From an uncultured Bacteroidales bacterium (GTDB lineage: Bacteria > Bacteroidota > Bacteroidia > Bacteroidales > F082): a stretch of 64,000 nt of DNA. The number at the start of each line of letters is the position of its first letter. Position 1 is the first letter of the stretch. Under the pieces are notes generated by a model. That model was not told the DNA's origin. It ran no database searches and saw nothing but the letters and a program-made list of their open reading frames with translations. Positions 34,779 to 63,360 of this stretch are shown piece by piece. Location: NCBI GenBank assembly GCA_900317055.1, contig ONFF01000004.1, positions 62,001-126,000 on the forward strand. The letters run 5' to 3'. The position numbers and the translations under genes were made by a program.

Positions 34779-34884
34779 TGTAAAGTTTTGTTACACCACT
34801 GTAAAAAAATGTTACACTTCGACAAGAATTTTAATTTTTAAATCTTTGAATTTCAAATAGTTAAATTTTTGGCATGAGATATGT
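34779..34884 (+). promoter_or_regulatory. Sigma-54-type promoter with paired palindromic sites, copy a (tolC)
   Basis: Two degenerate 17-bp palindromes, TGTAAAGTTTTGTTACA (34779-34795) and TGTAAAAAAATGTTACA (34800-34816), have centres 21 bp apart. The GG of TTGGCATGAGATATGT starts at 34871, 63 bp after the second centre, with 10 bp between GG and GT. This is the sigma-54 -24/-12 spacing, with GT in place of GC. The same layout recurs three more times. Confidence 0.7.
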
Positions 34885-34894
34885 TTCCTATTGG

Positions 34895-34912
34895 CACGTA
34901 GAAAACTACGTG
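34895..34912 (+). promoter_or_regulatory. Hairpin in the tolC leader
   Basis: CACGTAG and CTACGTG form a perfect 7-bp stem around AAAA. It ends 4 bp before the ATG and lies at or just after the predicted transcription start, so it could occlude or set translation initiation. Confidence 0.5.
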
Positions 34913-34916
34913 TATT

Positions 34917-36323
34917 ATGATAGTAAAACATACCTTTCTCATTTTGATGATGTCCGTTGGAGCCTTGACCAGCGTCAAGGCTCAGGACACCATCGCCATG
35001 GACCTCAAAGCCTGCATGCGCTATGCCGTGGAGCACTCCACCAAGATGCGCATTGCAGATGCCGACAATCGCGATGCGCAAATCGACCGCCGCGATGCCA
35101 TCCTTGCCGCCTTCACGCCTGAGATTGAGGGTAGTACATACGCCTATTCCAACTTCGGCCGCAGCATCGACCCCGAGACCAACACCTACATCAGGACGAC
35201 CTCGTTCCACAATGGTTACAGTCTCTCGGCGGGCATCAGCCTCTTCAATGGATTCCAGGCGGTCAATAACCTGAAAATCACCAAGACGGCGCAAATGATG
35301 GGCTTGACGAAGGAACAGCAAACTGAAGACCAGATCTGTCTCGCCACTATGGAGGCCTACTGCAATGTGCTTTACTACACCGAGTTGGAGAAAGCCCTGC
35401 AAGGACAACTGGCCACAGCGGAAAAATCCGTGCAACTAGCCACAAGGCAGGAACAACTGGGGCAGAAATCCCATGCCGATGTGGTGCAGATGCAGAGCGA
35501 CCTCGCCGAGCGCCAGTACCAACTGACCACCTGTCGGAACAACCTCAACAATGCTGTCATCACCTTGAAGGATGTGATGTTTTGGCCCATTGAAAAACCA
35601 TTGAAAATCGATGGTTTGGCTGTAGGGCTGTCGCATTGCGGCAGCCGCATTACCAACGATTCGTTGTTGCGGCTGCCATATTATGACAGCCCTACAGACC
35701 AAACGGATGAAATTTCCCAAATGGTGGAATTTGCCAAAACCAACATGCCTGCCGTCCTTTTGGCTGAAGGCACGATGAAAAATGCCCGCCTCGCCCTCAA
35801 GACGGCCCGCTGGCAGTTGCTGCCCCGCCTCTCGCTCTACGGTGGCTGGTCGTCGAGTTACTTCACCTATCCGGGCATGGAGGGCTATGTACCCACACCC
35901 TATTTCGAGCAGTTGAAGAACAACGGCGGCGAGTATGTGCAGCTCTCGTTGAGCATCCCCATCTTCGACCGCCTCTCCAGCCATTCCAACATCGCGCGGA
36001 AGAAGAACGCCTACGACCGTGCCCAGGCCGACTATGAGCAAGCCCTCCAAACAGTGGAGGCCGAGGTGCGCCGCGCCATCGCCGACCGCGACGGCAGTGC
36101 TGATGCCCTGCGCCAAGCCAACACTCGCGCAGAATTGCAGCAGGAGGCCTTCGCACTGAATACCAAACGCTTCGAGCAGGGCTTGATTTCGTCCATCGAG
36201 TACCAGACGGCATCGAACAACTACCTCAACGCCCTTGCGGAACAATTGAACGCCTGGCTTCAATACTTTATCAAGAGCAGCGTTGTAACTTATTATGGCG
36301 GAACTCCGTATATAGAACAATAG
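34917..36323 (+). CDS. TolC-family outer-membrane efflux protein
   Basis: A 468-aa protein with a signal peptide (about 1-23) and two long helical hairpin repeats typical of TolC (MDLKACMRYAVEHSTKMRIA, GLISSIEYQTASNNYLNALA). It forms the outer-membrane exit duct of tripartite pumps. It is the first gene behind a sigma-54-type promoter. The matching adaptor and ATPase lie 9-11 kb downstream on the same strand, after barrel and permease genes, which suggests an operon now interrupted by other modules. Confidence 0.9.
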   Translation: MIVKHTFLILMMSVGALTSVKAQDTIAMDLKACMRYAVEHSTKMRIADADNRDAQIDRRDAILAAFTPEIEGSTYAYSNFGRSIDPETNTYIRTTSFHNGYSLSAGISLFNGFQAVNNLKITKTAQMMGLTKEQQTEDQICLATMEAYCNVLYYTELEKALQGQLATAEKSVQLATRQEQLGQKSHADVVQMQSDLAERQYQLTTCRNNLNNAVITLKDVMFWPIEKPLKIDGLAVGLSHCGSRITNDSLLRLPYYDSPTDQTDEISQMVEFAKTNMPAVLLAEGTMKNARLALKTARWQLLPRLSLYGGWSSSYFTYPGMEGYVPTPYFEQLKNNGGEYVQLSLSIPIFDRLSSHSNIARKKNAYDRAQADYEQALQTVEAEVRRAIADRDGSADALRQANTRAELQQEAFALNTKRFEQGLISSIEYQTASNNYLNALAEQLNAWLQYFIKSSVVTYYGGTPYIEQ

Positions 36324-36357
36324 TATTTGTCACAAAACAGATCAAACTTGCAAAACA

Positions 36358-36642
36358 ATGAATAGACTCACCGATAACCTCATCAAAATCCTATCGTTAG
36401 GCATAGGTCTCGCCATCGGCATCGTGCTGATTGCCAAGGTGTGTTTTGAACTTTCTTACGATAGTTTCTACAAGGACGTGGCCCGCGAGTGGATAGAGCA
36501 GTTCGCGTTCCGTATCACGTTGTCGCCGTGGTATTTCATAGGTGCGGCGGCGATTGTTTTGGCCGTTGTCTCCTTGGTGATTGGCCTCAGCAGCTGGCGC
36601 ATTGCACGGATGAATCCTGTTAAGTCGCTTAGAGATAATTAA
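36358..36642 (+). pseudogene. FtsX-type permease with its middle deleted
   Basis: Ninety-four codons, open from ATG to stop. The first 42 residues (MNRLTDNLIKILSLGIGLAI to FYKDV) nearly match the start of the 788-aa permease at 39960. The remaining 52 (REWIEQFAFRITLSPWYF to ARMNPVKSLRDN) match the end of FtsX/MacB permeases. About 690 residues, including the periplasmic domains and most spans, are missing, and the junction is in frame. It could still produce a two-span peptide, but as a transporter it is a remnant. Confidence 0.85.
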
Positions 36643-36965
36643 TTCATATGTGCAAACAGATCCAAATAACGGTTGAGCGCGGTGAGCGTTTCCAAATCGC
36701 CTTCAAGGAAAGCTCCGCAGTAAAGTTCCCTGAAGCGGCAAAGTTCCTTCAAGAGGGCTTTGCGGTTGGGCGCGTCCTGCCTGCCGTAGGCGATAGTGAG
36801 GTCGATAAGTTCTTGCATCCGTTCGAAGGCTTTCTCCGCATTGTCGCGACGACCTTTGGCGAGCCATTTGGTGGCCCTGTAGGTCTCGCTTCCGATGTTG
36901 GCCATTTGTTGGGGAAAGGTCAAAGAAAGCCATGCGCCGTTCTGAAGTGTCTGGTGCTGCATCAT
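36639..36965 (-). CDS. Small helical protein paired with a DUF5674-like gene
   Basis: A 108-aa predicted all-helical protein (LTFPQQMANIGSETYRATKW, then AEKAFERMQELIDLTIAYGR and LKELCRFRELYCGAFLEGDL). I recall similar small proteins next to DUF5674 genes, but I cannot give a function. It overlaps the DUF5674-like gene by 4 nt (ATGA) and convergently overlaps the end of the permease remnant by 4 nt. The pair runs antisense to the surrounding efflux genes. Confidence 0.7.
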   Translation of the reverse strand: MMQHQTLQNGAWLSLTFPQQMANIGSETYRATKWLAKGRRDNAEKAFERMQELIDLTIAYGRQDAPNRKALLKELCRFRELYCGAFLEGDLETLTALNRYLDLFAHMN

Positions 36966-37300
36966 TCCACGAATTTTGAAACAAGTTCCTTGATTTGTTT
37001 TCTCACGCTTTCGTTCTCCACATCACGGCTGCGGTTGCCTTGCCATGCGCGGATATTGATTAAGGAGTCAAACTCGATGAAATCGTCTCCAGTCTCATCA
37101 GGATACAGGTTGAATCCCCAAAGGTTTTCTTGCTCAGAGCCATTCTCAAGCAGCATGGATTCCAAGTCTGCATGGAGTTCGGCATCGACAGCCAGAAGGC
37201 CGCGATTGACATCGGCCACACACTTAATCATGTCAACAAAAGTATTGGAAGCCAATTCTTTAAGTTGCTCTCTCGATATTTTTTCAGTAAGAATCTGCAT
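36962..37300 (-). CDS. DUF5674-like protein
   Basis: A 112-aa protein resembling DUF5674: ISREQLKELASNTFVDMIKC, AVDAELHADLESMLLENGSE, LWGFNLYPDETGDDFIEFDS and INIRAWQGNRSRDV. The conserved LHAD, LWGxNLYP and FIEFDSLINIR stretches suggest a small enzyme-like or binding fold of unknown role. It is the first gene of a two-gene unit with its own -7 element (TACTTTTG, complement of 37316-37323). The family name is from memory. Confidence 0.75.
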   Translation of the reverse strand: MQILTEKISREQLKELASNTFVDMIKCVADVNRGLLAVDAELHADLESMLLENGSEQENLWGFNLYPDETGDDFIEFDSLINIRAWQGNRSRDVENESVRKQIKELVSKFVE

Positions 37301-37581: not shown

Positions 37582-39915
37582 ATGAAAACTACAATGAAAT
37601 TCATGATGGTTTGCTGCCTTGTGGCGTTCTCGGCCATGAGTTACGGACAGCAACGGAAAACACAACTGAAGAATCGGACCGTGTCTGGTTATGTTCTGGA
37701 TTCTTGTCAAAGGTTGCCTGTGGAATATGCTGCCATACAGACCTTTGAAGTGGACAATGAGAAAAGACCTTTGGTCTCAACCATATCCGACTCCACCGGA
37801 TATTTCATGCTTTCAGGCTCCTTGCCCGACCAAGTGACTTTGACCATATCCTGTATCGGTTACGCAAGAAAGAGCGTACAAATCAACCTGAACAAGAACA
37901 AGACGAGAATCGAGCAGCCTATCCTGCTTCAACCAAGTTCTTTCACCCTTAATGAAGTATCGGTCACGACAAGCCCCTATATCATGAACTCGGACAGGTC
38001 GGTGTTTGTCCCCGATTCGATAGCGATTGCAAATTCCGTTACCTCCATCGACCTGCTGGGGCATGTTCCCGAGTTGCAGGTGAACAAAGTCACCAACAGT
38101 GTTTCCATCATCGGGAAATCGACGTTGGTGCTTGTCAACGGAATGATGCGCGAAGGCTTTGATATCAGTACGATTGCGATGGATGACATTGCGAAAATCG
38201 AAGTGGTGCAAAACCCTTCGTCGAAATATGAAACAGACATTGAGGGCATCGTGAACATAGTACTGAAAAGCGAAGCAAACCAAGGCGTTTTCGGATACGC
38301 AAGTGCGAGCAATTTGTTTCCGGCCAAAAGGACAGAAGGCTCGCTTGTACTACAGTACTCCTTTTCCAAAATGAGACTGTATGGCAACTATTATTATGGC
38401 CGTTGGGCTATGAAGAATGAAACGGAAACCTTCAGGACTCCTTTTGACGGGACAATGAACAATTCATACAATTCACAGAGCATGGATTTGCCGAAAGAGA
38501 ATATTCACTCTTTCCGTTTGGGATTCGACTACGTCCCCAACGACAAGACCCTGTTCAACGCTTTTGCAGAGATTAAAGCATACGACAAGCGCCTTACGGA
38601 CACGACCATGATACAATATACGAACGGCTTGGAAACGCTGAACCATTCATTGCAAAACGACACGACGAAAGGACTCTATCAAAACTACTCGCTCTATTTC
38701 AAGAGAGCATTTGACGGCGCTTTGAGACAAATCAGTTCTGACGCCAACATATACTTTATGAAAAGCAGGGATGTCGCCCATTATGACGAGGATTACCAGA
38801 TAGGGAACACCTCCTCTGCGGTTGACAGACTGCAATACGACGATGGATATAAGGCATCGGTGAATTATCATTTGGATGGCATCGTTGCTCTTGCCGAAGC
38901 CCATCGGATTGAATTTGGAGGGCAGTATTATTACCAGCATTTCAACGATGTGTTCACTGAGGCACAGGATGACTTCACTTTCAATTTCAAAGAAGGCCAG
39001 TTGTCGTTATATTCCGATTATTATGCGACCATCAACAAATGGAGCCTGAAGGCTGGAGCGCGCTACACTTATGACGACAGGAACTCGAACGATTCCCTTT
39101 CGCATTACCATTATTTCCTTCCTTCCGTTTCGGCTGCCTATCGTATGGATGATGACATCATCAGTTTGAAGTACAATCGCCGGCTGTACACCCCGGCCAT
39201 TTGGTCATTATGCCCGCAAGTCACCATGCAGGACTCGGTGACTTTTTCCTCCGGCAATCCTTATCTTCGTCCGCAAATCAATGATGTTGCCGAATTGAAC
39301 CTGAGGCTGAACAGGAATAAGAATGTGTTTTCGACAAGCTTGTACTATACCCATTCAGGCAGCGTCATCCGCACCATTTATTATCTGGACAACGGCAGAT
39401 TGTACGCTAAGCCCTTCAATATCTCCACCCTCAACAAATATGGCGCAAAAGCAAGTGCTTCGCTCAATCTGTTTGATGAATCGTTGGAGATAGAGTCGTT
39501 GGTTGATTTTCATCACGACACCTACTCGTATGATCAAGAGCAGAAAAGCGCATTCATCATAAGCACCAGTTTGTCCATCGATTATTCTTTCCCATGGGGA
39601 ATGAGCACGGGCGTTTCTTTCGATTACACCAACAAACAACTGCTTCCTCAAGGATTCGCAAAGGGTACACCACAAATCAGCAACATCTATTTGCGGCAAT
39701 CCTTCCTTGGAAATCGCGGAGCTATTATGCTGGCCTACCAAAACGTTTTCAAAGACATATATGAAAAGACCGTAGAATACGACACCTACACGCAGCTTAC
39801 GAAGTCGCTTTCGTATACATCTGGCATTTTCCTGAAGATAGACTATTGGTTCTCGAAGGGGAAGCAAAACAGAAATGTGTCAAGAAGGGAATATACGGAG
39901 GAAGATATAAAATGA
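37582..39915 (+). CDS. PF14905-like outer-membrane beta-barrel protein, copy 1
   Basis: A 777-aa protein with a signal peptide (about 1-23), a carboxypeptidase-regulatory-like domain (about 33-105: VSGYVLDSCQRLPVEYAAIQ), a plug-like domain (SVFVPDSIAIANSVTSIDLL, then IEVVQNPSSKYETDIEGIVN) and a large barrel of the TonB-receptor-related PF14905 type. No TonB box is evident. A paralogue at 50263 has the same order of domains. It sits between tolC and permease genes, so it may be the outer-membrane partner of this system, but its ligand is unknown. Confidence 0.85.
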   Translation: MKTTMKFMMVCCLVAFSAMSYGQQRKTQLKNRTVSGYVLDSCQRLPVEYAAIQTFEVDNEKRPLVSTISDSTGYFMLSGSLPDQVTLTISCIGYARKSVQINLNKNKTRIEQPILLQPSSFTLNEVSVTTSPYIMNSDRSVFVPDSIAIANSVTSIDLLGHVPELQVNKVTNSVSIIGKSTLVLVNGMMREGFDISTIAMDDIAKIEVVQNPSSKYETDIEGIVNIVLKSEANQGVFGYASASNLFPAKRTEGSLVLQYSFSKMRLYGNYYYGRWAMKNETETFRTPFDGTMNNSYNSQSMDLPKENIHSFRLGFDYVPNDKTLFNAFAEIKAYDKRLTDTTMIQYTNGLETLNHSLQNDTTKGLYQNYSLYFKRAFDGALRQISSDANIYFMKSRDVAHYDEDYQIGNTSSAVDRLQYDDGYKASVNYHLDGIVALAEAHRIEFGGQYYYQHFNDVFTEAQDDFTFNFKEGQLSLYSDYYATINKWSLKAGARYTYDDRNSNDSLSHYHYFLPSVSAAYRMDDDIISLKYNRRLYTPAIWSLCPQVTMQDSVTFSSGNPYLRPQINDVAELNLRLNRNKNVFSTSLYYTHSGSVIRTIYYLDNGRLYAKPFNISTLNKYGAKASASLNLFDESLEIESLVDFHHDTYSYDQEQKSAFIISTSLSIDYSFPWGMSTGVSFDYTNKQLLPQGFAKGTPQISNIYLRQSFLGNRGAIMLAYQNVFKDIYEKTVEYDTYTQLTKSLSYTSGIFLKIDYWFSKGKQNRNVSRREYTEEDIK

Positions 39916-39959: not shown

Positions 39960-42326
39960 ATGAATAGGCTAACCGACAAACTCATAAAAATCCTCTCCCT
40001 CGGGATTGGTCTCGCCATCGGCATCATGCTGATCGGCAAGGTGTGCTTCGAACTGTCGTATGACGGCTTCTACAAAGACGTGGACCGCATCTATCGAATC
40101 ACCGAAAACATCATCCATCAGAAAGGCGACGACCCAAGTGATTATTCATGTACTTCGGGAGCCATAGCGCCTGGCTTCAAGGCGGAGGTTCCCGGCGTGG
40201 AGGCGGCGACGCGCTATACTGATGTGTCAAACAATCACTTTTATGATGAAAGCGACAACCTCATCACAGGAGTGTGCCTCGGTGTGGATACTTGTTTCTT
40301 TGACTTTTTCGACAGAACCATCCTGGTCGGCGACCCGATGCATGCATTGCAACAATGGAATAAGGAAGTCGCCGTCAGCCGCAGTTTTGCAGAGAAGTTG
40401 GGCGGCGTAAATGAAGCCGTCGGCATGCAAATCTACATTGAGGAAGACCCGAAGACCAAACTGACCGTGGTGGGCGTTTTCGAGGACTTTCCCAAGAATG
40501 GATCGGTGCAATGTGACATCGTGTTGAGTATTGGCTTTTTTGGGGAGAGGAGCAACAACCGCTGGTTGGGCAACGACCGCTATTCCAGTTATGTCAGGCT
40601 CATGCCCAATGTAAAACCCGTTGAGTTGAAAGACGCCATCCGAAAGATGCAGGAGGCGCACCAGCCTATGGAGGAACTGGAACAGAACGGCTCCTCGATA
40701 TGGTACACGCTGACACCCTTTGCCACCTTGCACCGTCAGGAGGAGAGCGTCAGGAATTTCGTGATGATATTGTCGGTCATAGCTATTCTGGTGATGTTGG
40801 TCTCAGTGTTGAACTACCTGCTGATGGCCGTCTCGGATGTGGTGCGCCGCTCCAAGGAAATGGGGGTCAGGAAATGTTACGGTGCCAGTGCGGGCAACAT
40901 CTATTGGATGCTCATCAAGGAAACGGCCTTGAACCTGCTGGCTGCATTGGCAGTGGCTGCTCTGCTGATATGGGCGTTCAATGGGGCCGTTGAGTCGTTA
41001 TTAGGCGTGCCTGTTCAGAATCTCATGGTGCCTCAAACCCGATGGACACTCATCGCCATTCTCGCTTTCATCTTCTTGGTTGGTGCTCTTATCCCCGCCA
41101 TGATGTTTGTCAGAATTCCGGTTTCAACGGCCTTCAGAGGATACAATGAGAGTAAACGCCGTTGGAAACTCTCCCTGCTGATGGTGCAGATAGGCATCAA
41201 CGCCATCCTGCTGCCCATGGTCATCGTGGCTGACCGACAATACAATACTGCGCTGGCTGCCGATTTGGGCTATGAATACGAGCAGTTGCTGTATTCGTCA
41301 TTAGAAGGTGCGGGCAAGGACAATCTGGCGCTCATTACCGAGAAACTGAGGTCGATTCCCGGGGTGGAAGGCGCTGAACTGGCCTATTGTGCTCCTTTGT
41401 TGAGATCATCGGGTAACAACATCTCTTTACCCGACAACCCATCGAAAGAATTGTTCAATGTGTGCGACCAATACGGTGCGACGGAGGGCTTCTTCGACCT
41501 GATGGGCTTCCGCCTGCTGGAAGGCAGGATACCATCGAAGCCGAATGATGTGGCGGTGAGCAGTAGTTTCGTGAAGGCGATGAACCGCTTTGAAGATTGG
41601 AGCGACGGCGCTGTGGGCAAAGACATCTTGATTTCGGAGCACAGCCACAGCGATGATGATGTATATACCATCTGTGGCGTTTATGAGGACTATGTTATCG
41701 GTTCGGCCATCGGCAAGGATGATAGGCCCAACATCCGTTTCTGCTGGAACAAGGATTGGTTTGATGGTCCTTACGATTATGCGCAAATCATGGACAAACT
41801 GGTGGTGAAGGTGCGTGAGGTGAATCCCGAGACGATAGAAAAGGTGAAGTCGGTTATCGAGGAGTGTCTGCCTGAACGGAAAAACATAGAGGTGACTGCC
41901 TATACCGAATTGGTCAAGGAAGAGTATTCCTACACTTACCAGATGCGTCGTGCTTTCACGATGGGAGCCTTGTTTGCCATGGCCATTGCCTTGGTCGGTC
42001 TGATCGGCTTTGTCCGCGATGAGTCCAACCGCCGCAGCAAGGAAGTCGCCATCCGCAAGGTGAACGGCGCGGTGACGGGCGAAATCATCCGTATGTTCGT
42101 GGCGGATGTGCTGAAATTGGCTGTGATTGCGGCTTTGATCGGCGTGGCGATAGCCTATTTCCTTGCCGACAAATGGTTGGAGTTGTTCGCCATGCGCATC
42201 GGTCTCTCGCCGCTTTATTTCATCATCGGCGCGGTGACGGTCTTGCTTATCGTGACCGCCGTGGTCGTCATGAGCAGCAACCGCGTTGCCCGAATGAATC
42301 CTGTTAAGTCTTTGAAGAATAATTGA
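39960..42326 (+). CDS. FtsX/MacB-type ABC permease 1
   Basis: A 788-aa permease without an ATPase domain. It has a first span (about 11-30) and a long periplasmic MacB-type region. Three spans lie near 268-400 (with SKEMGVRKCYGASAGNIYWM in the FtsX core), followed by a second periplasmic region. Three C-terminal spans end in the family tail (ARMNPVKSLKNN). MacB-type permeases transmit ATP-driven motion to the periplasm and to a TolC duct. It starts 44 bp after the barrel gene behind an AC-rich leader and must borrow an ATPase, probably the one at 46630. Confidence 0.9.
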   Translation: MNRLTDKLIKILSLGIGLAIGIMLIGKVCFELSYDGFYKDVDRIYRITENIIHQKGDDPSDYSCTSGAIAPGFKAEVPGVEAATRYTDVSNNHFYDESDNLITGVCLGVDTCFFDFFDRTILVGDPMHALQQWNKEVAVSRSFAEKLGGVNEAVGMQIYIEEDPKTKLTVVGVFEDFPKNGSVQCDIVLSIGFFGERSNNRWLGNDRYSSYVRLMPNVKPVELKDAIRKMQEAHQPMEELEQNGSSIWYTLTPFATLHRQEESVRNFVMILSVIAILVMLVSVLNYLLMAVSDVVRRSKEMGVRKCYGASAGNIYWMLIKETALNLLAALAVAALLIWAFNGAVESLLGVPVQNLMVPQTRWTLIAILAFIFLVGALIPAMMFVRIPVSTAFRGYNESKRRWKLSLLMVQIGINAILLPMVIVADRQYNTALAADLGYEYEQLLYSSLEGAGKDNLALITEKLRSIPGVEGAELAYCAPLLRSSGNNISLPDNPSKELFNVCDQYGATEGFFDLMGFRLLEGRIPSKPNDVAVSSSFVKAMNRFEDWSDGAVGKDILISEHSHSDDDVYTICGVYEDYVIGSAIGKDDRPNIRFCWNKDWFDGPYDYAQIMDKLVVKVREVNPETIEKVKSVIEECLPERKNIEVTAYTELVKEEYSYTYQMRRAFTMGALFAMAIALVGLIGFVRDESNRRSKEVAIRKVNGAVTGEIIRMFVADVLKLAVIAALIGVAIAYFLADKWLELFAMRIGLSPLYFIIGAVTVLLIVTAVVVMSSNRVARMNPVKSLKNN

Positions 42327-48945: not shown

Positions 48946-48966
48946 AGCATTTCTTTTTATGCATTT

Positions 48967-49194: not shown

Positions 49195-49232
49195 CATGCT
49201 AAAAGGCAGTAAAATTATAAACCTGTAAAGCT

Positions 49233-52563: not shown

Positions 52564-52715
52564 GAAATAATAATGCCGAGATGAAAAACTGCAATAATCT
52601 GAAAATCAACCAAGTGCTTTTCGAAAAGTTGGTAAAGTTCTTCGGACTTGAAAAAGCGGAGAAAATATACAAAAGACTTGATCGTTTAAATAATAACTCA
52701 ACGACTTATGGCTAG
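52560..52715 (+). CDS. Small ORF overlapping both neighbours
   Basis: Fifty-one codons, MRNNNAEMKNCNNLKINQV then LFEKLVKFFGLEKAEKIYKR. The start overlaps the barrel-gene stop (ATGA, 4 nt); the stop lies 8 nt inside the next permease gene. This double coupling is typical of real operon members. An internal ATG at 52581 aligns with the start of the 37-aa paralogue at 50128. In the shared 26-residue core 19 positions are identical. No family recognised. Confidence 0.72.
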   Translation: MRNNNAEMKNCNNLKINQVLFEKLVKFFGLEKAEKIYKRLDRLNNNSTTYG

Positions 52716-55139: not shown

Positions 55140-57548
55140 ATGGCTCGAATCTATAAAAAAGGCAAGACCTCCCTTGTGTCTTCCATCCTGAATATCTTGG
55201 GCTTGACGGCAGCCTTCGCCGCACTCTACATCATCCTTGTGCAGGTGCACCACGACTTCACCTACAACAAGGCGCTCAAAGACAGCGACAGGATTTATGT
55301 CCTTACCATGCCAGACCGATTTTCAAACAATGTTTATTCGACATACGTCAATCGTCAGATGTCGGAAGCGGTCATTGCTGCTGTCCCCAGCGTAGAGGCG
55401 GGCTGCTGCGCTGCCAATTTAGGGAGCCTCGAAGTTTCCGTACGCTTGGGCGAAGGACAGTCGTCAATCGAATTGAGAGTCACCAGTTTCTCCAAACCCG
55501 CCATCGACGTGTTTGGATTTGAACTTGTTGCCGGCAATTTGGACCATTGGATTAGTAACACGGATGCGGTTATGTCCGAGTCAGCGGCCAAACGCTTGGG
55601 CTTGCAGGTGGGCGACCATTTCCAATATGGCAACTGGAATTGGACAGATGTCACGGTAGCAGCCATCTACAAGGATATGCCTGTCAACAGCGACCTTTCC
55701 TCCATCGACTTTATTCTGAATCTGGGCGAAGCGGGTATGAGCGATTGGACCCAATGGGGCTGGAATTATTTCATAAAACTCGCTGAAGGCGCTGACCCAA
55801 AAGAGTTCGATGAAATTGCACACCAAGTCGCCTTTGACCTTTTTAAGACAAAATTCGACATTGATGAAAGCGATATGACCGAAGAAAAAGCAGCGGATAT
55901 TGAGGGATATAAAAAAATGATGTCACCTCATCTAATGAAGTTGACGGACAATTATTTTGCCGATAATGTCGGGCATCCGGGCAAGTCGGGCAATCGCACC
56001 ACGACCATCACCTTGCTTGTCATCGCCATTTTCGTGATGCTCATCGCCTTCATAAACTACATCAACTTCTTCTTCGCGATGGTGCCGTTGCGTCTGCGGA
56101 GTATCAACACACGCAAGATATTGGGCAGCAGCCGCTTCCAGTTGGTGATGTCGTCGGTGGGCGAGTCGGTGCTGATGGTCGTTATCGCTCTTGGACTGGC
56201 GGTGGCCGTGGTTACGCTGTTCAGACAATCCACCTTGGCTGCACTGATTGACACACCGTTGAACTTCGGCCAGAATTTGGGTATTGCGGCTTTGACCGTC
56301 GGTATCGCCTTGCTCATTTCGGTGCTTGCCAGCCTCTATCCGGCCTTGTTCTCCACCTCGTTCAATCCCGCTTTTGCCTTGAAAGGCACCCTCGGCACCA
56401 CGCAGAAAGGCAAGGCTTTCCGCATCGGATTGATTGGCTTGCAGTTCACCGTGAGCATCGTGCTGATTATCTGTGCAGTTTTTGTTCATCAGCAACGCGA
56501 TTTCATGATGAATCACGACATGGGTTTCAATCAAGAAAACCTGCTTCAGTCGCATGTGACATGGGAACTCGCCAACAACCGTGAAACTGTCGAGAATCAG
56601 TTGAAAACAGATGCTGACATCAAGGACATCGCATGGGGCGACGGCCCGTTTGTGGCCAACAGCCGTATGGCGTGGAGCCGCGAGTTCAAAAGTGATTCTG
56701 AGGGTCTGTCATGGCAGGTCTATCCAGTTTCTTGGAACTTCCTGCGTTTTATGGGTATTGACATTGTGGAAGGCCGCGACTTTACTCCCGCCGACGAGCA
56801 ATCGGAAAACGGAGTCTATATCATCAACGAGACGGCTCAGAAAATGTACGGCATCACCACTGAAGACAGAATCTGGGGTCATAAAGAGGTTCCTGCCGAG
56901 ATTGCAGGTGTTTGTAGGGACTTCAATTTCTCTCCTTTGCGCGATGAGATTAGTCCATTTGCATTCTATGTCTATGGCAAGGAGCCGTGGAGCCCGTGCA
57001 TGAGGCTGTTCATCCGTACCGAAGCCGGCGTTGATACCCAAGCGTTGATGGAACGCTCAATAAAAACCCTCAACGACCTCGACCCGACATTAGGCGACGG
57101 TTTTTCGGTTTGGATGAGACCGTTTGAACAAGCAATTGAGAACCAATACAAAAAGGAGCAAAACCTCTCGAAGTTAGTCACTTTGTTTACGGTGCTGGCT
57201 ATCGTCATTTCGTTGATGGGCGTGTTCGGTTTGGTGATGTTCGAGACGGAGCACCGCCGCAAGGAAATCGGCATCCGTCGTGTGCATGGGGCAACGGTGG
57301 GGCAGATTTTGGCGATGTTTAACTCGCGCTTTGTAAAAGTTGTGATGGTGTGCTTCGTCATCGCCGTGCCCGTGAGCATTGTCATTATGCGGCGTTATTT
57401 GGAAGGCTTTGCCTATCAGGTGCCGCTGCATGTCTGGGTGTTTGCCCTTGCGCTGTTGGCCGTCTTGGCTGTAACGATAGCGGTGGTCACCTTGCGAAGT
57501 CTGCGGGCGGCTACGATGAATCCGGTGAAGTCACTACGCAATGAATAA
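55140..57548 (+). CDS. FtsX/MacB-type ABC permease 4
   Basis: An 802-aa tandem duplicate of permease 3. Residues 1-55 differ at only two or three positions, the central block from GNRTTTITLLVIAIFV onward and the C-terminal spans are almost the same, but the first periplasmic domain (about 57-285) is strongly different and 14 residues longer overall. The conserved tail is ATMNPVKSLRNE. Such a mosaic fits diversification of the substrate- or partner-contacting domain on a fixed membrane frame. Confidence 0.92.
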   Translation: MARIYKKGKTSLVSSILNILGLTAAFAALYIILVQVHHDFTYNKALKDSDRIYVLTMPDRFSNNVYSTYVNRQMSEAVIAAVPSVEAGCCAANLGSLEVSVRLGEGQSSIELRVTSFSKPAIDVFGFELVAGNLDHWISNTDAVMSESAAKRLGLQVGDHFQYGNWNWTDVTVAAIYKDMPVNSDLSSIDFILNLGEAGMSDWTQWGWNYFIKLAEGADPKEFDEIAHQVAFDLFKTKFDIDESDMTEEKAADIEGYKKMMSPHLMKLTDNYFADNVGHPGKSGNRTTTITLLVIAIFVMLIAFINYINFFFAMVPLRLRSINTRKILGSSRFQLVMSSVGESVLMVVIALGLAVAVVTLFRQSTLAALIDTPLNFGQNLGIAALTVGIALLISVLASLYPALFSTSFNPAFALKGTLGTTQKGKAFRIGLIGLQFTVSIVLIICAVFVHQQRDFMMNHDMGFNQENLLQSHVTWELANNRETVENQLKTDADIKDIAWGDGPFVANSRMAWSREFKSDSEGLSWQVYPVSWNFLRFMGIDIVEGRDFTPADEQSENGVYIINETAQKMYGITTEDRIWGHKEVPAEIAGVCRDFNFSPLRDEISPFAFYVYGKEPWSPCMRLFIRTEAGVDTQALMERSIKTLNDLDPTLGDGFSVWMRPFEQAIENQYKKEQNLSKLVTLFTVLAIVISLMGVFGLVMFETEHRRKEIGIRRVHGATVGQILAMFNSRFVKVVMVCFVIAVPVSIVIMRRYLEGFAYQVPLHVWVFALALLAVLAVTIAVVTLRSLRAATMNPVKSLRNE

Positions 57549-57555
57549 TATAAAG

Positions 57556-57840: not shown

Positions 57841-58167
57841 ATGGATATAACTAATAATATATTATCATTTAATATTGTCTCACCTGAAGGCAAGGCCATG
57901 GCTTTGGCGGAACGGGTGAAAGCACGCCGTTTGGAGATGAACCTGACGCAGGAAGGTCTTTCTGTGCGCTCGGGATTGCCTTTGGCGACCTACCGCCGCT
58001 TTGAGCGGACAGGCAAGATTTCCTTGGACGGACTGCTCCATATCGCCTACGCCTTGGATGCCTTGAACGACTTTGACCGATTGTTTGAGTCACGCAAATA
58101 TGCCACTTTGGATGAGGCACTTAGTGCCACCACAACAAACAGAAAGCGAGGGAAACACAATGAGTAA
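57841..58167 (+). CDS. HipB-like antitoxin/regulator
   Basis: A 108-aa helix-turn-helix protein (DNA-binding part about 24-78: ERVKARRLEMNLTQEGLSVR, SGLPLATYRRFERTG). It overlaps the HipA-like gene by 8 nt, the usual order for hipBA. In such pairs it represses its own promoter and neutralises the kinase. The N-terminal 20 residues precede the HTH, so a later start (ATG at 57898) is possible. Confidence 0.85.
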   Translation: MDITNNILSFNIVSPEGKAMALAERVKARRLEMNLTQEGLSVRSGLPLATYRRFERTGKISLDGLLHIAYALDALNDFDRLFESRKYATLDEALSATTTNRKRGKHNE

Positions 58168-59236
58168 AAAGATAGTTGAAGTAACGCTAGGCTCTCGTAA
58201 AGTCGGGCGGATAGCCTTGGACAGAGACGGTCGCGCTTTGTTCGAATACGACGCGGACTGGATTCGGAACGGCTTTTCCATCTCGCCGTTTTACTTGCCT
58301 TTGGAATCGAGGTTGTTCACCGCCGATGCGAAGCTTTTTGACGGCAACTTCGGAGTGTTCGACGACAGCCTGCCCGACGGCTGGAGTGCATTGGTGCTCG
58401 ACCGTTATCTGAGGTCGCAAGGCAAGTCATTGGCTTCGTTGGATTTGTTGGAGCAACTGATGTTTATCGGTAGCCGTGGGCGTGGTGCCTTGGAATACCA
58501 TCCCGACCTAAGCACCGTTGACGAGCAGGTCGTCATCGACCTCGACCACATGGCGGAAGAGTCGCAGCGGGTATTGAATACCGACTATTCCGACAACCTC
58601 GACAAGGCTTGGCGACGCGGCGGCTCTTCGGGCGGCACGAGACCCAAAGTGTTTGTGCATCACGACGGCGCCGAGTGGTTGGTGAAGTTCCGCGACCGCA
58701 CCGACCCGCCCAATGTAGGCAAAATCGAATATGAGACCTCACTGTTGGCTCGCGAATGTGGCATTGAGATGGCCGAGACCCGACTTTTCGAAGGAAAATA
58801 CTTCGGCTCAAAGCGCTTCGACCGTACCGATGACGGCGGCAAACTACACGTTATCAGTCTCTCCGCCCTGATGAACCTCGATTATCATCTGCCCACCGCC
58901 GATTACGGTCATCTGTTCTGGGCTTGCAGCCAGCTCACACATTCCGTCAAGGAACTGTGGAAGGTGTTCCGCCTGATGGCGTTCAACCTCATTATTGGCA
59001 ACTGCGATGACCATGTGAAGAACTTTGCCTTCATCCGCCGCAACGATGTTTGGCAGTTGGCTCCAGCCTACGATGTGCTGCCTTGCGAAGGCTTAGGTGG
59101 CTTCCACAGCCTTTCCGTGAATGGCAACTACAAAGACCCGGGGAAAACGGACGCTGTTCAGCTTGCCGTAAAATTCGGGCTGCGAAAGGATGAGGCCGAA
59201 GAAGTGTTTGAAGAAATCCGTAAACGCTCACTGTAA
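58160..59236 (+). CDS. HipA-family kinase toxin
   Basis: A 358-aa protein from the ATG at 58160, which overlaps the antitoxin gene; an upstream frame extends 29 codons inside it and is rejected. It has the N-terminal coupling domain (1-105) and the kinase core: GSSGGTRPK (155-163), NLIIGNCDDHVKNF (276-289, catalytic Asp), and APAYDV (301-306, metal site). HipA kinases phosphorylate aminoacyl-tRNA synthetases and cause growth arrest. The stop codon overlaps the first palindrome of promoter c. Confidence 0.9.
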   Translation: MSKKIVEVTLGSRKVGRIALDRDGRALFEYDADWIRNGFSISPFYLPLESRLFTADAKLFDGNFGVFDDSLPDGWSALVLDRYLRSQGKSLASLDLLEQLMFIGSRGRGALEYHPDLSTVDEQVVIDLDHMAEESQRVLNTDYSDNLDKAWRRGGSSGGTRPKVFVHHDGAEWLVKFRDRTDPPNVGKIEYETSLLARECGIEMAETRLFEGKYFGSKRFDRTDDGGKLHVISLSALMNLDYHLPTADYGHLFWACSQLTHSVKELWKVFRLMAFNLIIGNCDDHVKNFAFIRRNDVWQLAPAYDVLPCEGLGGFHSLSVNGNYKDPGKTDAVQLAVKFGLRKDEAEEVFEEIRKRSL

Positions 59237-59338
59237 CGTTTTTTTACACCCACTGTAAAGAAACTTTACACTTTTACAAAAGGGTAAAATTGCATCTTGT
59301 TGATTCATATCATTTTACAAATTTGGCACAGATTATGC
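59232..59338 (+). promoter_or_regulatory. Sigma-54-type promoter with paired palindromic sites, copy c
   Basis: Sites TGTAACGTTTTTTTACA (59232-59248, degenerate, overlapping the hipA stop) and TGTAAAGAAACTTTACA (59254-59270) have centres 22 bp apart. The GG of TTGGCACAGATTATGC starts at 59325, 63 bp after the second centre, with GC at 59337-59338. Confidence 0.78.
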
Positions 59339-59341
59339 CAT

Positions 59342-59395: not shown

Positions 59396-61768
59396 ATGAG
59401 CAGCTACCTGAAATTCCTCTCCCGAAACAAACTCTACAGCATCATCGAGGCGGTGGGCTTGGCCGTCAGTTTGGCCTTTGTGGTCATCATCTTCTGCTAT
59501 GTGACCCAACAAATCGCTGTGACACGTGAAAACCCACACCGAAAGGAAATATACGCCGTGGGGTTGAAGAACCTGATTAAATTCGAGTATGGATTGAAAG
59601 GCAGCATCGGCGAGAGCATCCCCGAAATTGAATCGATCACCGAGTTCCAGATGATGCATACCGATATGAAGGCCGACGACCAATCCCGTGCGGTGTATGT
59701 GCTGGGCTGCGACCGCGATTTCTTCGACATCTTTCCCGTCGAGTTCGCCGTAGGCCAGCCAGACCAAATCAACGAAGTTTCGGCGGCATTCGTGTCGGAG
59801 CGTATGGCGCAATTGCTTTCCGAGACAGGCGAAGTGGTTGGGCGCAGCATCCATTTGTTTAAGCGCGATTACACCGTGGCTGGCGTGATTTCCGACTTCG
59901 GCAGTTCGCTTTTCTACGAAACGCCCGATGTGATTGTCAATGTGGATGTCAGCGATGGCGTGGTGTTCTATGGTGGCCTCAACAGCCCATCCCGACCAGC
60001 CAATGTGTTTACCACAGTGAATGTCTTTGTGAAAGTGTTTCCCAATACCGACCGTGCGGCACTTCTTGAAAAAATGTCGGCAGCGATTGTGGCCTTTTAC
60101 TCTGAGATTTTAGGGATGGAGCCCCCGTTTGAAATTGCAGAAAACACTATGTTGGTTCGCTTGGATGAGTTGTTTTACACCGATGCCCAAACCAACCTGA
60201 AGAAAGGCGACAAAACGATGATGCACAGCCTGTTGGCTATAGGCTTGCTGCTGTTGATTTCTGCCATATTCAACTACATCAACCTCAACGTTGCCTTGAC
60301 GAGCAAACGGGCCAAGGAGATGGCTTCGAGGCGGCTGCTTGGCGCGACGAAGAGCGAAATTATCGGGAAATACCTCTGGGAGTCGCTGGCGTTCACTTCG
60401 GTGTGTATGGTGCTTGGCATCCTTTTGGCCGAGGCGCTTTGCCCCATGGTCAATCGACTGTTGGGCGGAAGTGTTGGGGTTAGGATTTCGCTCTCGCCTT
60501 TCTATTTGGTTTCCTACCTGTTGATAGTGGTGGTTGTGGCTTTGCTGGCGGGCATCGCGCCTGCAGTGGTGGTGTCGCGTGCCCAGCCCATTGATGTGGT
60601 GAAGGGCATGTTCCGCTTCCGCAACAAGATGGTGCTCTCGAAGGTATTCATCGTCCTGCAAAACGTCATCGCCATCGTGCTGATTGCCTTGGTGATCACG
60701 ATGGAAGCGCAAATGCGCCACATGGAGCGGAGGCCGGTGGGATGCCGCACTGAAAACCTGTTTTATCTCGAATCCGTCCTTACGGGCAATGAGGCATTCG
60801 AGAATGATTTGCTGTCATTGCCTTGTGTGAAGCGGATGGGCCATTCCTACGGCTATCCTGGCAGTGCAATGATGGGCTCTAACTTTGTGCGCCTCAACGA
60901 TCCCGACAATTTTATTTCCGTTGGGTACCTGATGTGCGACACGGCGGCTTTCGACCTTTACGACTTCGATACCAAGGTGATGTACAGCCAATTGGAGGAA
61001 GGCAAGTGGTTATTGACGCAGGGGCTTTTGGAGAGCCAACTGGGGATGCCGATGAGCAAGTTCGACCCCGACTCGCTGGGCGTTTGGTACAAGCACAATG
61101 TCGGCTACGACCTGTGTGGCGTGGTGGGCGATTTCGCCATCAACAGTGCTGCCTCTGTGGTTGACGAGAAGTTCGGTGCCGTGCAGATTGTGGGAGATGA
61201 GCCGATGTTCGAATGGGTGAGTTTCAATCCTGTACTGGATATTGTGGGCGACCACGCCGAAGCTCGCAAGGCAATCGATGCGGTGTATGACAAACATATC
61301 AAAATGCAAGAAACCTATTGGGAACCTTTCAGAGAGGGCTTTATAGATGACCTTTTGCTGCAAAGTTTGCAGAGCACCAAAAACAAAATGCGCCTTGTGG
61401 ACTTGTTTATGGCGGTGGCGGTAATGCTCTCGCTGTTGGGACTGGTAGCCATGAGCACGCATTTCGCCTCCGAGCGCGAGAAGACCATCGCCGTCCGCAA
61501 GGTGTTTGGCGGCACAATGCAAAGCGAGATTCGCCGCAACCTGAAGGAATACATCATCATGATTCTTATCGCTAATGTCATCGCCATACCCATAGCGGTT
61601 TGGGTGTGCGGGCGTTATCTGGAGGATTTCGTCTATCGCATCGACCTGTATCCGTGGATCTTCGTGGTGACGGTGGTGCTGTCGTTTGTCATCGCCATCG
61701 GCTCCGTGCTTTGGCAAATCGTTTCCGTGGCGAGGGTGAACCCGGTGATGGCGTTGAAGAAGGAATAA
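59396..61768 (+). CDS. FtsX/MacB-type ABC permease 5
   Basis: A 790-aa permease closest in style to permease 2: MSSYLKFLSRNKLYSIIEAV start, central core AKEMASRRLLGATKSEIIGK (about 305-324), C-terminal EREKTIAVRKVFGGTMQSEI and tail VNPVMALKKE. It is the first gene behind promoter c, with no ATPase or adaptor of its own, and ends 13 bp before a convergent ATPase gene. Confidence 0.9.
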   Translation: MSSYLKFLSRNKLYSIIEAVGLAVSLAFVVIIFCYVTQQIAVTRENPHRKEIYAVGLKNLIKFEYGLKGSIGESIPEIESITEFQMMHTDMKADDQSRAVYVLGCDRDFFDIFPVEFAVGQPDQINEVSAAFVSERMAQLLSETGEVVGRSIHLFKRDYTVAGVISDFGSSLFYETPDVIVNVDVSDGVVFYGGLNSPSRPANVFTTVNVFVKVFPNTDRAALLEKMSAAIVAFYSEILGMEPPFEIAENTMLVRLDELFYTDAQTNLKKGDKTMMHSLLAIGLLLLISAIFNYINLNVALTSKRAKEMASRRLLGATKSEIIGKYLWESLAFTSVCMVLGILLAEALCPMVNRLLGGSVGVRISLSPFYLVSYLLIVVVVALLAGIAPAVVVSRAQPIDVVKGMFRFRNKMVLSKVFIVLQNVIAIVLIALVITMEAQMRHMERRPVGCRTENLFYLESVLTGNEAFENDLLSLPCVKRMGHSYGYPGSAMMGSNFVRLNDPDNFISVGYLMCDTAAFDLYDFDTKVMYSQLEEGKWLLTQGLLESQLGMPMSKFDPDSLGVWYKHNVGYDLCGVVGDFAINSAASVVDEKFGAVQIVGDEPMFEWVSFNPVLDIVGDHAEARKAIDAVYDKHIKMQETYWEPFREGFIDDLLLQSLQSTKNKMRLVDLFMAVAVMLSLLGLVAMSTHFASEREKTIAVRKVFGGTMQSEIRRNLKEYIIMILIANVIAIPIAVWVCGRYLEDFVYRIDLYPWIFVVTVVLSFVIAIGSVLWQIVSVARVNPVMALKKE

Positions 61769-61781
61769 CAATGCCAGAAAA

Positions 61782-63119
61782 CTACATCGGACTGAACACT
61801 ATCTTTTTGTTCGGTAGTTCTCGTTCACGGAGATACATCAACAGATACACCGGAAGATATATGTTTCGGTCAAGGATTTCAATGTTCTTTGTCGTATATA
61901 TAAATGCCTCTTTTATCGCATATTCTTCATTTTTCATCACATTGCAAAGAGCATTATGCCGTTTGTAATCCTTCCCTGACTTGATTTCTATCGGGAGAGC
62001 TTGATTGTCGTGTTCAATGACGAAATCGAGTTCTCCCTGTTTTTTACTGTTGAAATAGTAAAGGTCGTAACCATGCGAACGAAGTTCTTGTGCGGCAAAA
62101 TTCTCAAAGACGGCACCGAAGTTTGCATTGATTTCGCCAATCATGATATTGAGTTGAAAACCAGATGAGTACATGCAGGACAGCAGGCCAACATCATTAA
62201 GAAACAACTTGAACAAGTTGCGTTGTTCATTAAGTTTCAACGGAACACAAGGTTTGTCGACATTATATGTGGGTAAGGCCACCCCTGCATCGGTCAGCCA
62301 AAGGAAGCTGTTCTCGTATTTTTCGAATTTTGCTCTATCGTTCAGCGATTTTAGTATAAATCTCTTGTTTTGGGCATTGAGTTCCGACGGAATCCTTTCA
62401 AAAATCTCTTTGATAAATAGCTTGTTGTCGGCATATTTTGCAATGTCCTTTTTATACAGTTTCAGGATGTTCTCCTGCTCGCGTCGGACTTCGTGCATAT
62501 TGTTGGTGTCCAAATATTTCTCCACAACAGCTGGCATTCCTCCAATCACAAGGTATAGACGAAGCAATTCCATCATCTTCTCATGAACGACAGAGTCGAT
62601 GGGAATTCTCTTATCGTAACATTCATGAAGATGTGTCATCACCTCATCACTCATGCCTAAAGACAATGCGAACTCCTCGAAATCGAGCGGAAACATTTCT
62701 TTTTCAGCCATGTAACCAACAGGGACGCTTCGCAAGTCTTTCAATTCGACACCTAAAAGAGAGCCGCTCATGACATAACGATAACTTCCTTCATCGACAA
62801 GAAACTTAATCGCCGTGACAATTTCTGGACATTCCTGCACTTCATCGAAGAAAATCAAGGTGCTGCCAGATTCCAATTTTGTGGCGGTCAACGCAGAAAT
62901 GCGCAACAGGATATCGTTTGTGTCGAGCGGATTGGCAAAGATGGTTTTGAGTTTCGGATTTTTGATGAAATTGAATTCCACAAAATGCTTGAATGTTTCT
63001 TCGCCCACTTTGCGTATGGCATAGGTTTTTCCTACTTGTCGTGCACCCGTAACAAGGAGCGATTTTTTGTCATTCAAAAAGAAATCTTTTAAATAACTGT
63101 AAATCTTTCTATTAATCAT
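61782..63119 (-). CDS. AAA ATPase with DUF4143 domain, copy 2
   Basis: A 445-aa protein with P-loop GARQVGKT (25-32), Walker B LIFFDEVQECPE and a C-terminal DUF4143 domain with a nuclease-like core (SKKQGELDFVIEHDNQALPI, then EIKSGKDYKRH). It is only distantly similar to the copy at 47626. It is the sole minus-strand gene between two sigma-54-type permease units, so probably an insertion. Function of the family is unknown. Confidence 0.88.
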   Translation of the reverse strand: MINRKIYSYLKDFFLNDKKSLLVTGARQVGKTYAIRKVGEETFKHFVEFNFIKNPKLKTIFANPLDTNDILLRISALTATKLESGSTLIFFDEVQECPEIVTAIKFLVDEGSYRYVMSGSLLGVELKDLRSVPVGYMAEKEMFPLDFEEFALSLGMSDEVMTHLHECYDKRIPIDSVVHEKMMELLRLYLVIGGMPAVVEKYLDTNNMHEVRREQENILKLYKKDIAKYADNKLFIKEIFERIPSELNAQNKRFILKSLNDRAKFEKYENSFLWLTDAGVALPTYNVDKPCVPLKLNEQRNLFKLFLNDVGLLSCMYSSGFQLNIMIGEINANFGAVFENFAAQELRSHGYDLYYFNSKKQGELDFVIEHDNQALPIEIKSGKDYKRHNALCNVMKNEEYAIKEAFIYTTKNIEILDRNIYLPVYLLMYLRERELPNKKIVFSPM

Positions 63120-63127
63120 TTTTCAAT

Positions 63128-63207
63128 GCTTTTTTCCAACCGCAAAAATACAACTATTTTGCTTTTTTCCAACCTTAATTAGGATGTTTTTATACTTTTT
63201 TCCAACT
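63128..63207 (-). promoter_or_regulatory. Three 33-bp-spaced repeats at the DUF4143 ATPase promoter
   Basis: CTTTTTTCCAAC (plus strand) occurs three times, at 63129, 63162 and 63195, exactly 33 bp apart. A -7 element (TATTTTTG, complement of 63143-63150) lies between the first two. The 33-bp period puts all copies on one face of the helix, so they are likely operator sites. Confidence 0.65.
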
Positions 63208-63254
63208 TATTCATAAAAATAGGGAAATAGCCTGCACCCAATTTACATGACGAC

Positions 63255-63360
63255 TGTAAAGTTTCTTTACACCCACTGTAAAGAAACTTTACACTTTTAC
63301 AAAATCAAAAATCATATATTGTTGATTCATATTGTTTTATGATTTTGGCACGAAGATTGT
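63255..63360 (+). promoter_or_regulatory. Sigma-54-type promoter with paired palindromic sites, copy d
   Basis: Perfect palindromes TGTAAAGTTTCTTTACA (63255-63271) and TGTAAAGAAACTTTACA (63277-63293) have centres 22 bp apart. The GG of TTGGCACGAAGATTGT starts at 63347, 62 bp after the second centre, with GT at 63359-63360. The AT-rich spacer shares TTGTTGATTCATAT with copy c. Confidence 0.78.

Follow-up and report, generated by a model that had tools for sequence, protein, structure and literature searches.

Paired palindromes before sigma-54-type promoters and a neighbouring NtrC-type regulator predict an exporter regulon in Bacteroidales

Four promoter-like elements recur within a 64,000-nucleotide stretch of DNA from an uncultured Bacteroidales bacterium (hereafter the window), raising the question of whether one activator serves them all. 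The original prediction described each as two 17-bp palindromes with centres 21-22 bp apart, followed 62-64 bp after the centre of the second palindrome by the GG of a GG-N10-G(C/T) box, and our measurements confirmed this arrangement at all four positions, on the forward strand. At P1, the predicted activator site pair TGTAAAGTTTTGTTACA-ccac-TGTAAAAAAATGTTACA (34779-34816; starts 34779 and 34800, 21 bp apart) precedes the sigma-54 box TTGGCATGAGATATGTT (34869-34885), whose first G, at 34871, lies 63 bp from the second-site centre. The P2 pair (49088-49125; starts 49088 and 49109, 21 bp apart) consists of two exact sites and is followed by TTGGCACGGCGATTGCC (49179-49195; GG at 49181, 64 bp), while the P3 pair (59232-59270; starts 59232 and 59254, 22 bp apart) precedes TTGGCACAGATTATGCC (59323-59339; GG at 59325, 63 bp) and the P4 pair (63255-63293; starts 63255 and 63277, 22 bp apart), again with two exact sites, precedes TTGGCACGAAGATTGTT (63345-63361; GG at 63347, 62 bp). 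The palindrome form given earlier, TGTAAAGnnnCTTTACA, was exact in five of the eight sites and too strict for the other three, with 2 mismatches at 34779, 3 at 34800 and 2 at 59232. A fifth copy of pair and box (P5) was found just outside the window, and all five promoters share the fixed geometry and a GG-N10-G(C/T) box with the consensus TTGGCAY. With GG counted as -25/-24, the site centres fall about 88 and 109 bp before the expected start, on one helical face and within the 80-150 bp range of tandem dyads.

We then compared these elements with chance expectation. The window contained 10 matches to the palindrome at no more than 3 mismatches, including the eight sites; shuffled windows averaged 2.2, and none reached 10 (n = 100). 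The paired pattern occurred five times in the 3.53-Mb genome and a control pattern not at all; the whole-genome pattern search returned no further pair, and all five promoters lie within 31 kb, so that the pairs are not scattered at random. A weight matrix covering pair and box, trained on other genomes with near relatives included, scored P1-P4 at 60.9-74.5 bits and nothing else in the window at 12 bits or above; no score of 10 bits or more was obtained on eight strands of base-shuffled window. The pattern TTGGCAYN6TGY matched the genome 89 times (control 37), and only the five boxes of the cluster stand behind such a pair. Chance palindromes were rejected on the shuffle counts, the genome pattern control and the matrix scores. 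A plain repeat family was also rejected, the DNA from second site to box at P1 and P2 being by eye clearly unlike the others. By eye, P3, P4 and P5 resemble one another between second site and box.

The activator had been expected close to, but outside, the window, and genes for a response regulator and a histidine kinase were found behind the fifth promoter, 6-8 kb past the window end. The regulator (449 aa; L024:10026-11375, window frame 70026-71375) has the REC-AAA+-Fis architecture of an NtrC-type response regulator (PF00072, PF00158, PF25601 and PF02954: receiver, sigma-54 AAA+ and Fis-type HTH), and is encoded with a short histidine kinase of 285 aa. The genome also contains rpoN (PF04552 match, E 7e-52, C11:186025-186504). 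These findings support the interpretation that one NtrC-type regulator acts at sigma-54 promoters, and we consider it very probable that the five elements are sigma-54 promoters with two upstream sites each for this dedicated regulator. Two regulator dimers would bind the two palindromes next to each other, at a separation of two helical turns and with centres near -88 and -109 relative to the start, and the bound dimers would form the AAA+ oligomer that opens sigma-54 polymerase. The arrangement resembles NtrC at glnAp2, where a REC-AAA+-Fis protein acts from tandem 17-bp dyads about 90-110 bp before a -24/-12 promoter, but differs in its palindrome, its two-turn spacing, its targets (exporters rather than nitrogen genes) and its sigma-54 contact loop, which reads GAFTDA instead of GAFTGA; the regulator also scores 339.1 bits with the NCBIfam ntrC model, under the cut-off of 558.6. 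The loop variant is a point against the proposed activation. All regulators compared that carry RPTLY in the recognition helix have the GAFTDA loop except L226 (GSFTDA), and GAFTDA is listed, in the portion of PMC4641369 available to us, among loop variants expected to keep activity.

The predicted output comprises several MacB/FtsX-type permeases and their TolC, HlyD and ATPase partners, all encoded on the forward strand. The first P1 gene encodes a TolC-type outer membrane efflux protein (OEP; 34917-36323, PF02321). It is followed by a 94-aa frame (36358-36642) whose translation, by eye, resembles an FtsX-type permease that has only its beginning and end and lacks the central part, a TonB-receptor-like outer membrane protein (OMP_b-brl_3; 37582-39915), permeases 1 (39960-42326) and 2 (42564-44891), an HlyD-type periplasmic adaptor (45156-46424) and an ABC ATPase (46630-47316, PF00005). 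P2 leads into a DUF2807 protein (49233-50171), followed by a second TonB-receptor-like outer membrane protein (50263-52563) and permeases 3 (52708-55074) and 4 (55140-57548). Permease 5 (59396-61768) lies behind P3, and permease 6 (787 aa) behind P4, occupying 63415-64000 in the window and ending outside it at L024:5778. The operon extents given here are putative. The set has the components of a MacB-type exporter (MacB_PCD and FtsX domains, ATPase, HlyD adaptor and TolC-type OEP) and shares with MacAB-TolC and the darobactin-type DarBCD exporters a MacB/FtsX permease, an HlyD adaptor, a TolC-type OEP and a separate ATPase. Unlike those systems, it has many permeases, and the two permeases and the adaptor that were scanned fell below the NCBIfam cut-offs for ADOP (TIGR03434; 183.6 and 157 against 622.3), DarB (70.6 and 32.8 against 700) and DarC (207.5 against 450).

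For Bacteroidia, a computational study of 2025 (PMC12316311) predicted that sigma-54 controls FtsX-like permeases of COG0577, with the same promoter class preceding the same permease class. The regulon is thus not undescribed in full, as the original prediction had suggested it might be; what is added is the upstream site and the activator, both proposed here and neither given in the part of PMC12316311 available to us. That part states that only GAFTGA activators were retained, a filter that would leave out a GAFTDA regulator. The accessible text of PMC9723704 mentions a sigma-54 regulator once in passing and gives no site. Our literature search returned no description of this site or regulator, and no Bacteroidales sigma-54 activator with an assigned site. 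A precise DNA site, a promoter geometry and a probable activator can now be assigned to a regulon common to many Bacteroidales, and since the site is searchable in any genome, operon membership becomes predictable.

A collection search by the pair alone returned at least 116 stretches, several from one assembly. Among the matches listed, 79 of 116 stretches had a sigma-54 box 50-90 bp downstream of the pair and 37 did not; 77 of the 79 belonged to Bacteroidota, and a box was present in 2 of 14 stretches from other phyla. The distances between pair and box, again among the matches listed, were 62-66 bp in 80 cases, 72-76 bp in six and 84 bp in one, the longer ones shifting by about 10-11 bp, or about one or two helical turns, while the remaining distances, up to about 300 bp, together gave 11 combinations. 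One pair each in G003 and G279 also stands without a box. Of the 60 genomes in the genus sample, 42 carried 1-8 pairs (control 0/60), and the exact pair was found in only 10 of 295 genomes sampled across the order. A contig of the cultured Bacteroides caecigallinarum An428a (L057) carries pair and box together with OEP, HlyD, FtsX and ABC genes. Behind 86 distinct collection promoters, the first gene encoded an FtsX permease (30), OEP (25), DUF2807 protein (5), ABC protein (4), TonB-like protein (1), regulator (1) or another product (9), 66 of the 86 leading into families also seen behind the promoters described here; no ORF was found behind the remaining 11, seven of which lie near contig ends.

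Could the pairs instead terminate or attenuate upstream transcription as hairpins? In many pairs the second site comes close to reverse-complementing the first, so that a 17-bp stem with a 4-5-nt loop and a T-rich tail can form, and the folds at P2 (-20.2 kcal/mol), P3 (-13.3) and P4 (-20.1) each beat all 200 shuffles, whereas that at P1 was no better than shuffles (27/200 as good). A terminator scan matched P2. Among 63 distinct pairs, 24 had at least five T in the nine bases after the pair, but only five formed perfect hairpins; inner bases matched as reverse complements within a pair at 4.19 of 7 positions, against 3.69 of 7 after permutation (1 of 2000 permutations as high). However, the pair precedes the expected sigma-54 start. 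Of the 55 upstream neighbours that could be read, 24 are oriented away from the pair, which leaves nothing to terminate, and a terminator does not explain a box distance of 62-66 bp that shifts in steps of roughly one helical turn. We therefore rejected this explanation as extremely unlikely and continue to read the pairs as putative activator sites.

What the kinase senses is a separate matter. In all 12 closer RPTLY systems measured, our own included, the kinase has 281-291 aa and one N-terminal hydrophobic segment, which leaves no room for a periplasmic sensor domain, and the gene immediately before the regulator often encodes a permease. Kinases with extra N-terminal sequence occur in six RQTLY systems (430-436 aa), and the distant RPT(L/M)Y regulators L127, L113 and L114 adjoin kinases of 449, 469 and 458 aa; the family thus includes an ordinary sensing input, and helix class as such does not dictate a short kinase. 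We give an even chance to the reading in which the adjacent regulator runs the exporters while its kinase senses an ordinary cytoplasmic or membrane signal and the permeases are not sensors, a reading that the short kinases and the neighbouring permease genes oppose. The signal may be envelope damage or export. In several relatives the regulator and kinase genes come after an operon of this type and share its strand, which may make the loop self-amplifying. BceRS-BceAB is a peptide-detoxification module of Bacillota with an OmpR-type regulator and a two-segment intramembrane kinase. The present system resembles it in placing an FtsX-type permease near a response regulator and a kinase without an extracellular sensor domain, but it is not a BceRS-BceAB module: its regulator is NtrC-type and would act with sigma-54, its kinase has one hydrophobic segment and its permeases are MacB-like. 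A sensor-less kinase adjoining permease genes raises a testable question about envelope sensing.

To relate the regulator to the site, we compared recognition helices with palindromes. Among the 37 genus genomes with an SRPTLY regulator, 32 had exact pairs, with no box required, and one more, G349, has a 19-bp-spaced pair with a box; the count for RQTLY regulators was 0 of 6. Outside the genus, where genomes were partly chosen by presence or absence of the pair, the RPTLY genomes G003, G049, G221, G279 and G152 have pairs with boxes, and no pair was found in the RQTLY genomes G111, G194 and G258 or in G090 (RQTIY). Four RPTLY genomes (G299, G311, G333 and G351) gave no pair by the exact pattern, nor by the matrix in the stretches examined. 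Overall, the motif was present in 37 of 41 rows versus 0 of 11, but on the tree these rows amount to only two independent contrasts, which is not enough for significance. This contrast left out the motif-found loci L075, L087, L113, L114, L121, L122, L127 and L138, second copies per genome, rows under 430 aa and rows with neither P nor Q; it coded G349 as motif present on its 19-bp-spaced pair, and G243 (RQTLY, outside the genus) as absent, the single pair there standing without a sigma-54 box. In G318 (RQTLY), three exporter promoters have TTGGCACG boxes preceded, with unchanged spacing and distance, by pairs of the TGTCCAA...TTGGACA type, a pattern derived from G318 and found in none of the other genomes of the 60-genome sample. 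The differing helix and palindromes of G318 in the same layout tie the predicted regulator to its putative site.

This bears on a further explanation, that a repressor or global regulator binds the pairs while another of the genome's three remaining activators serves the boxes. The genome encodes four clear sigma-54 activators, pair-like arrays without sigma-54 boxes occur at L027 and L064, and pairs are present in eight of the 15 genus genomes lacking a close regulator match, six of them less than 90% complete and the others 91% (G330) and 97% (G316) complete. Against this, only the C21 activator adjoins the cluster, and its relatives (E ≤ 1e-90) were found in 45 of 60 genus genomes, in many of them on the contig of a pair and only a few kb from it; of the other three activators, two have the helix readings SERTLY and DRKTLY, and in the third no Fis-type C-terminus could be read; and helix and palindrome are both different in G318. 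This explanation was rejected as very unlikely, and we retain the adjacent NtrC-type regulator as the probable activator. In G316, two pairs lie 2.4-3.6 kb from a contig end.

A palindrome that differs along with the recognition helix offers a route to reading the specificity of sigma-54 activators. Judging from sequence comparison, we propose, tentatively and as something rather doubtful, a Gram-negative sigma-54 counterpart of Bce-type detoxification modules, in which the permeases would sense for the sensor-less kinase, the regulator would amplify its own operon together with the exporters, and helices and palindromes that had changed together among Bacteroidales (TGTAAAG with RPTLY, TGTCCAA with RQTLY) would form a natural specificity code. 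A site of related type (TGTCTATTTTTTTTACA) can be seen in front of OEP in G303 and G344.

Paired 17-bp palindromes with a sigma-54 box downstream were confirmed at all four promoters proposed in the window, the centre of the second site lying 62–64 bp from the GG of the box: P1 (34779/34800, 63 bp), P2 (49088/49109, 64 bp), P3 (59232/59254, 63 bp) and P4 (63255/63277, 62 bp). Five of the eight window sites matched the stated palindrome form exactly, and the other three carried 2–3 mismatches. Past the window end, a fifth candidate promoter, P5, was located on stretch L024 (6168-6206; 66168-66206 in the window frame), its pair 63 bp upstream of TTGGCATGGGTTATGCC. A pattern scan of the source genome (3.53 Mb, 32 contigs, 98.7% complete) found just P1–P5, so that the palindromes were not scattered at random, and the reversed control pattern gave 0 matches in the same scan. 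The box pattern TTGGCAYN6TGY matched 89 times versus 37 for its control pattern, with a pair upstream in only 5 of the 89 (P1–P5). A weight matrix built from other genomes, among them near relatives, scored P1–P4 at 60.9–74.5 bits; eight 64-kb strands of base-shuffled sequence gave nothing at 10 bits or more. A perfect inverted repeat, CACGTAG-aaaa-CTACGTG (34895-34912), sits where transcription from P1 is expected to start and overlaps a second TTGGCACG that has no -12 element.

The genome contains rpoN, on whose presence the sigma-54 reading depends, together with four clear and three weak matches to sigma-54 activators. As the original prediction had placed it, an activator was found near but beyond the window, behind P5 (contig C21:132026-133372): a 449-aa receiver-AAA+-Fis regulator, whose gene overlaps by 4 bp with that of a 285-aa histidine kinase downstream. 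The sigma-54 contact loop of the regulator reads GAFTDA, not GAFTGA; PMC4641369 lists GAFTDA among the variants expected to activate. P5, an FtsX permease, an AAA_14 ATPase, the regulator and the kinase follow one another on one strand, with gaps of 63 bp between the permease and ATPase frames and 12 bp between ATPase and regulator. Terminator-like matches on this strand all fell within the permease gene (L024:6908-7805), with none between the permease gene and the regulator; the scan overall was richer than shuffles (15 matches vs 7.1). Related stretches showed recurring orders: pair-FtsX-FtsX-ABC-regulator-kinase (L217), pair-FtsX-ABC-regulator-kinase (L218), pair-DUF2807-FtsX-FtsX-regulator-kinase (L301), pair-FtsX-FtsX-AAA14-regulator-kinase (L313) and, in L121, the regulator immediately behind the pair. 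Together with the order behind P5, these arrangements make it likely that the regulator controls its own putative operon. Two regulator dimers on adjacent palindromes would form an AAA+ oligomer, which would contact the sigma-54 polymerase by looping, a mode of action general for the family. Binding of the pairs by another protein, or service of the boxes by another activator of the genome, would be less economical than control by this regulator.

We then scanned a species-wide genome collection with the pair alone, the box not being required, and obtained at least 116 stretches. Among the 116 listed, 87 were from Bacteroidales, 102 from Bacteroidota and 14 from other phyla. A TGGCAY-N6-TG-type box lay 50–90 bp downstream in 79 of these 116, of which 77 were from Bacteroidota; the other phyla contributed boxes in 2/14 listed stretches. 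Box/pair combinations in the listed stretches clustered at 62 bp (9), 63 bp (30), 64 bp (17), 65 bp (23) and 66 bp (1), with 6 more at 72–76 bp, 1 at 84 bp and 11 in all at the remaining distances out to about 300 bp. Such clusters, about 10–11 bp apart, are expected if the sites must share a helix face with the polymerase. The main structural rival, that the pairs are hairpin terminators, draws on P2–P4, which could fold as hairpins, but the evidence speaks against it: only 5/63 distinct pairs were perfect hairpins, the pair-to-box distance is conserved and the upstream gene is divergent in 24 of 55 cases with a readable neighbour. The spacer CCAC or CCCAC was frequent (34/79 promoters among the stretches listed). 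In the own genus, 42/60 genomes held 1–8 pairs, and the control pattern occurred in 0/60; under even sampling of the order, the exact pair was present in 10/295 genomes (control, 1/295), and the exact form is thus patchy outside a few lineages. Other arrangements were also seen. In one Bacteroidota MAG (L027, L064), TGTAAAGTCATTTTACAGACG-like units form tandem 21-bp arrays that lack sigma-54 boxes. The Bacteroidaceae MAG CALULY has TGTAAGTG...CACTTACA-like triplets 22 bp apart (L047, L048, L088, L098 and, assigned by title, L068 and L070), mostly without a sigma-54 box at the usual distance. Three stretches (L075, L122, L138) carry TGTAA-type pairs with sigma-54-like boxes about 98–111 bp away and a more distant regulator family (33–34% identity), and may represent a further class with this layout.

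We compared the recognition-helix class at the regulator C-terminus with the site. In the own genus, exact pairs (box not required) occurred in 32/37 genomes with (I/M)SRPTLY regulators and pairs in 0/6 with RQTLY; G349, an (I/M)SRPTLY genome, had one pair with 19-bp spacing. Two genomes in which the regulator end was missing both had pairs, as did 8 of the 15 without a regulator match at E<=1e-90. Outside the genus, 14 genomes were compared, chosen partly for having or lacking the pair. Pairs with boxes were present in 5/5 genomes whose best regulator was RPTLY; no pair was found in 4/5 RQT(L/I)Y genomes, the fifth (G243) having one pair without a sigma-54 box, nor in the remaining four (TRASLY in three, a partial best match in one). 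The P/Q label changed six times on a tree that includes motif-found loci. With those loci left out, the motif was present in 37/41 P rows vs 0/11 Q rows, but with just two independent contrasts the association of helix class with palindrome type is suggestive only. The best single case for a regulator-site correspondence, judged from sequence, is G318, whose regulator reads ISRQTLYNK: pairs of the kind TGTCCAAAAATTAGACA-cccac-TGTCCAAAAATTGGACA, with 22-bp spacing, stand at three exporter promoters, 62–64 bp upstream of TTGGCACG boxes (two distances hand-counted), and the pair pattern derived from G318 was found in 0/59 other genomes of the genus sample.

Kinases measured 281–291 aa in 12/12 closer RPTLY systems, the own one included, each with a single hydrophobic segment near the N-terminus that leaves no space for a periplasmic domain. 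Those of six RQTLY systems measured 430–436 aa. Kinases beside three distant RPT(L/M)Y regulators reached 449–469 aa, which indicates that shortness of the kinase is a trait of the closer clade rather than of the helix class. A permease next to a kinase that has no sensor of its own is reminiscent of Bce modules; on this likeness we propose that the permeases would report damage or export load to the kinase.

The window encodes a TolC-type OEP, an HlyD adaptor, an ABC ATPase, a DUF2807 protein, two TonB-receptor-like proteins and five complete MacB/FtsX permeases plus the start of a sixth; a seventh lies behind P5. For the collection, we took as first gene the longest frame (100 aa or more) with a start no further than 450 bp downstream and compared it with the window proteins (E<=1e-4). 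Among the stretches listed, window-type families came first at 66 of 86 distinct promoters: FtsX permease (30), OEP (25), DUF2807 (5), ABC ATPase (4), TonB-like (1) and regulator (1); at the other 20, the first gene was of another kind in 9 and no frame qualified in 11, of which 7 lie close to a contig end. The scanned proteins did not reach the ADOP, DarB or DarC cut-offs of NCBIfam. A first link between sigma-54 promoters and COG0577/FtsX permeases, in Bacteroidia among others, is reported in PMC12316311, which kept GAFTGA activators only and in whose main text the string 'palindrom' does not occur. The suggestion of an undescribed regulon appears to hold for the site and the activator, and not for the sigma-54/FtsX link: no description of regulon, site or activator was found in searches of an open-access library. 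Systems of this kind are textbook material; what seems new is the regulon, together with its site and activator.

The commonest non-exporter target seen was a set of very similar genes behind the same promoter type (L036, L086, L135), whose products start MKKL..LLLGLM.TTACTAQP and are perhaps, by eye, carboxylesterases. Behind the OEP gene, a 94-aa frame (36358-36642, plus strand) resembles the two ends of an FtsX-type permease fused together, a possible internal-deletion remnant. Between the OEP and TonB-like genes, a DUF5674 gene and a 108-aa partner (36639-37300, minus strand) are toxin-antitoxin-like by arrangement only. Three AAA_14/DUF4143 ATPase genes (47626-49041 and 61782-63119, minus strand; L024:8775-10013, plus strand) are interspersed among the promoters, and the same kind of gene recurs in relatives' clusters. 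Directly upstream of P3 are HTH and HipA-type genes (57841-59236, plus strand), the predicted activator site at 59232 overlapping the end of the hipA frame.
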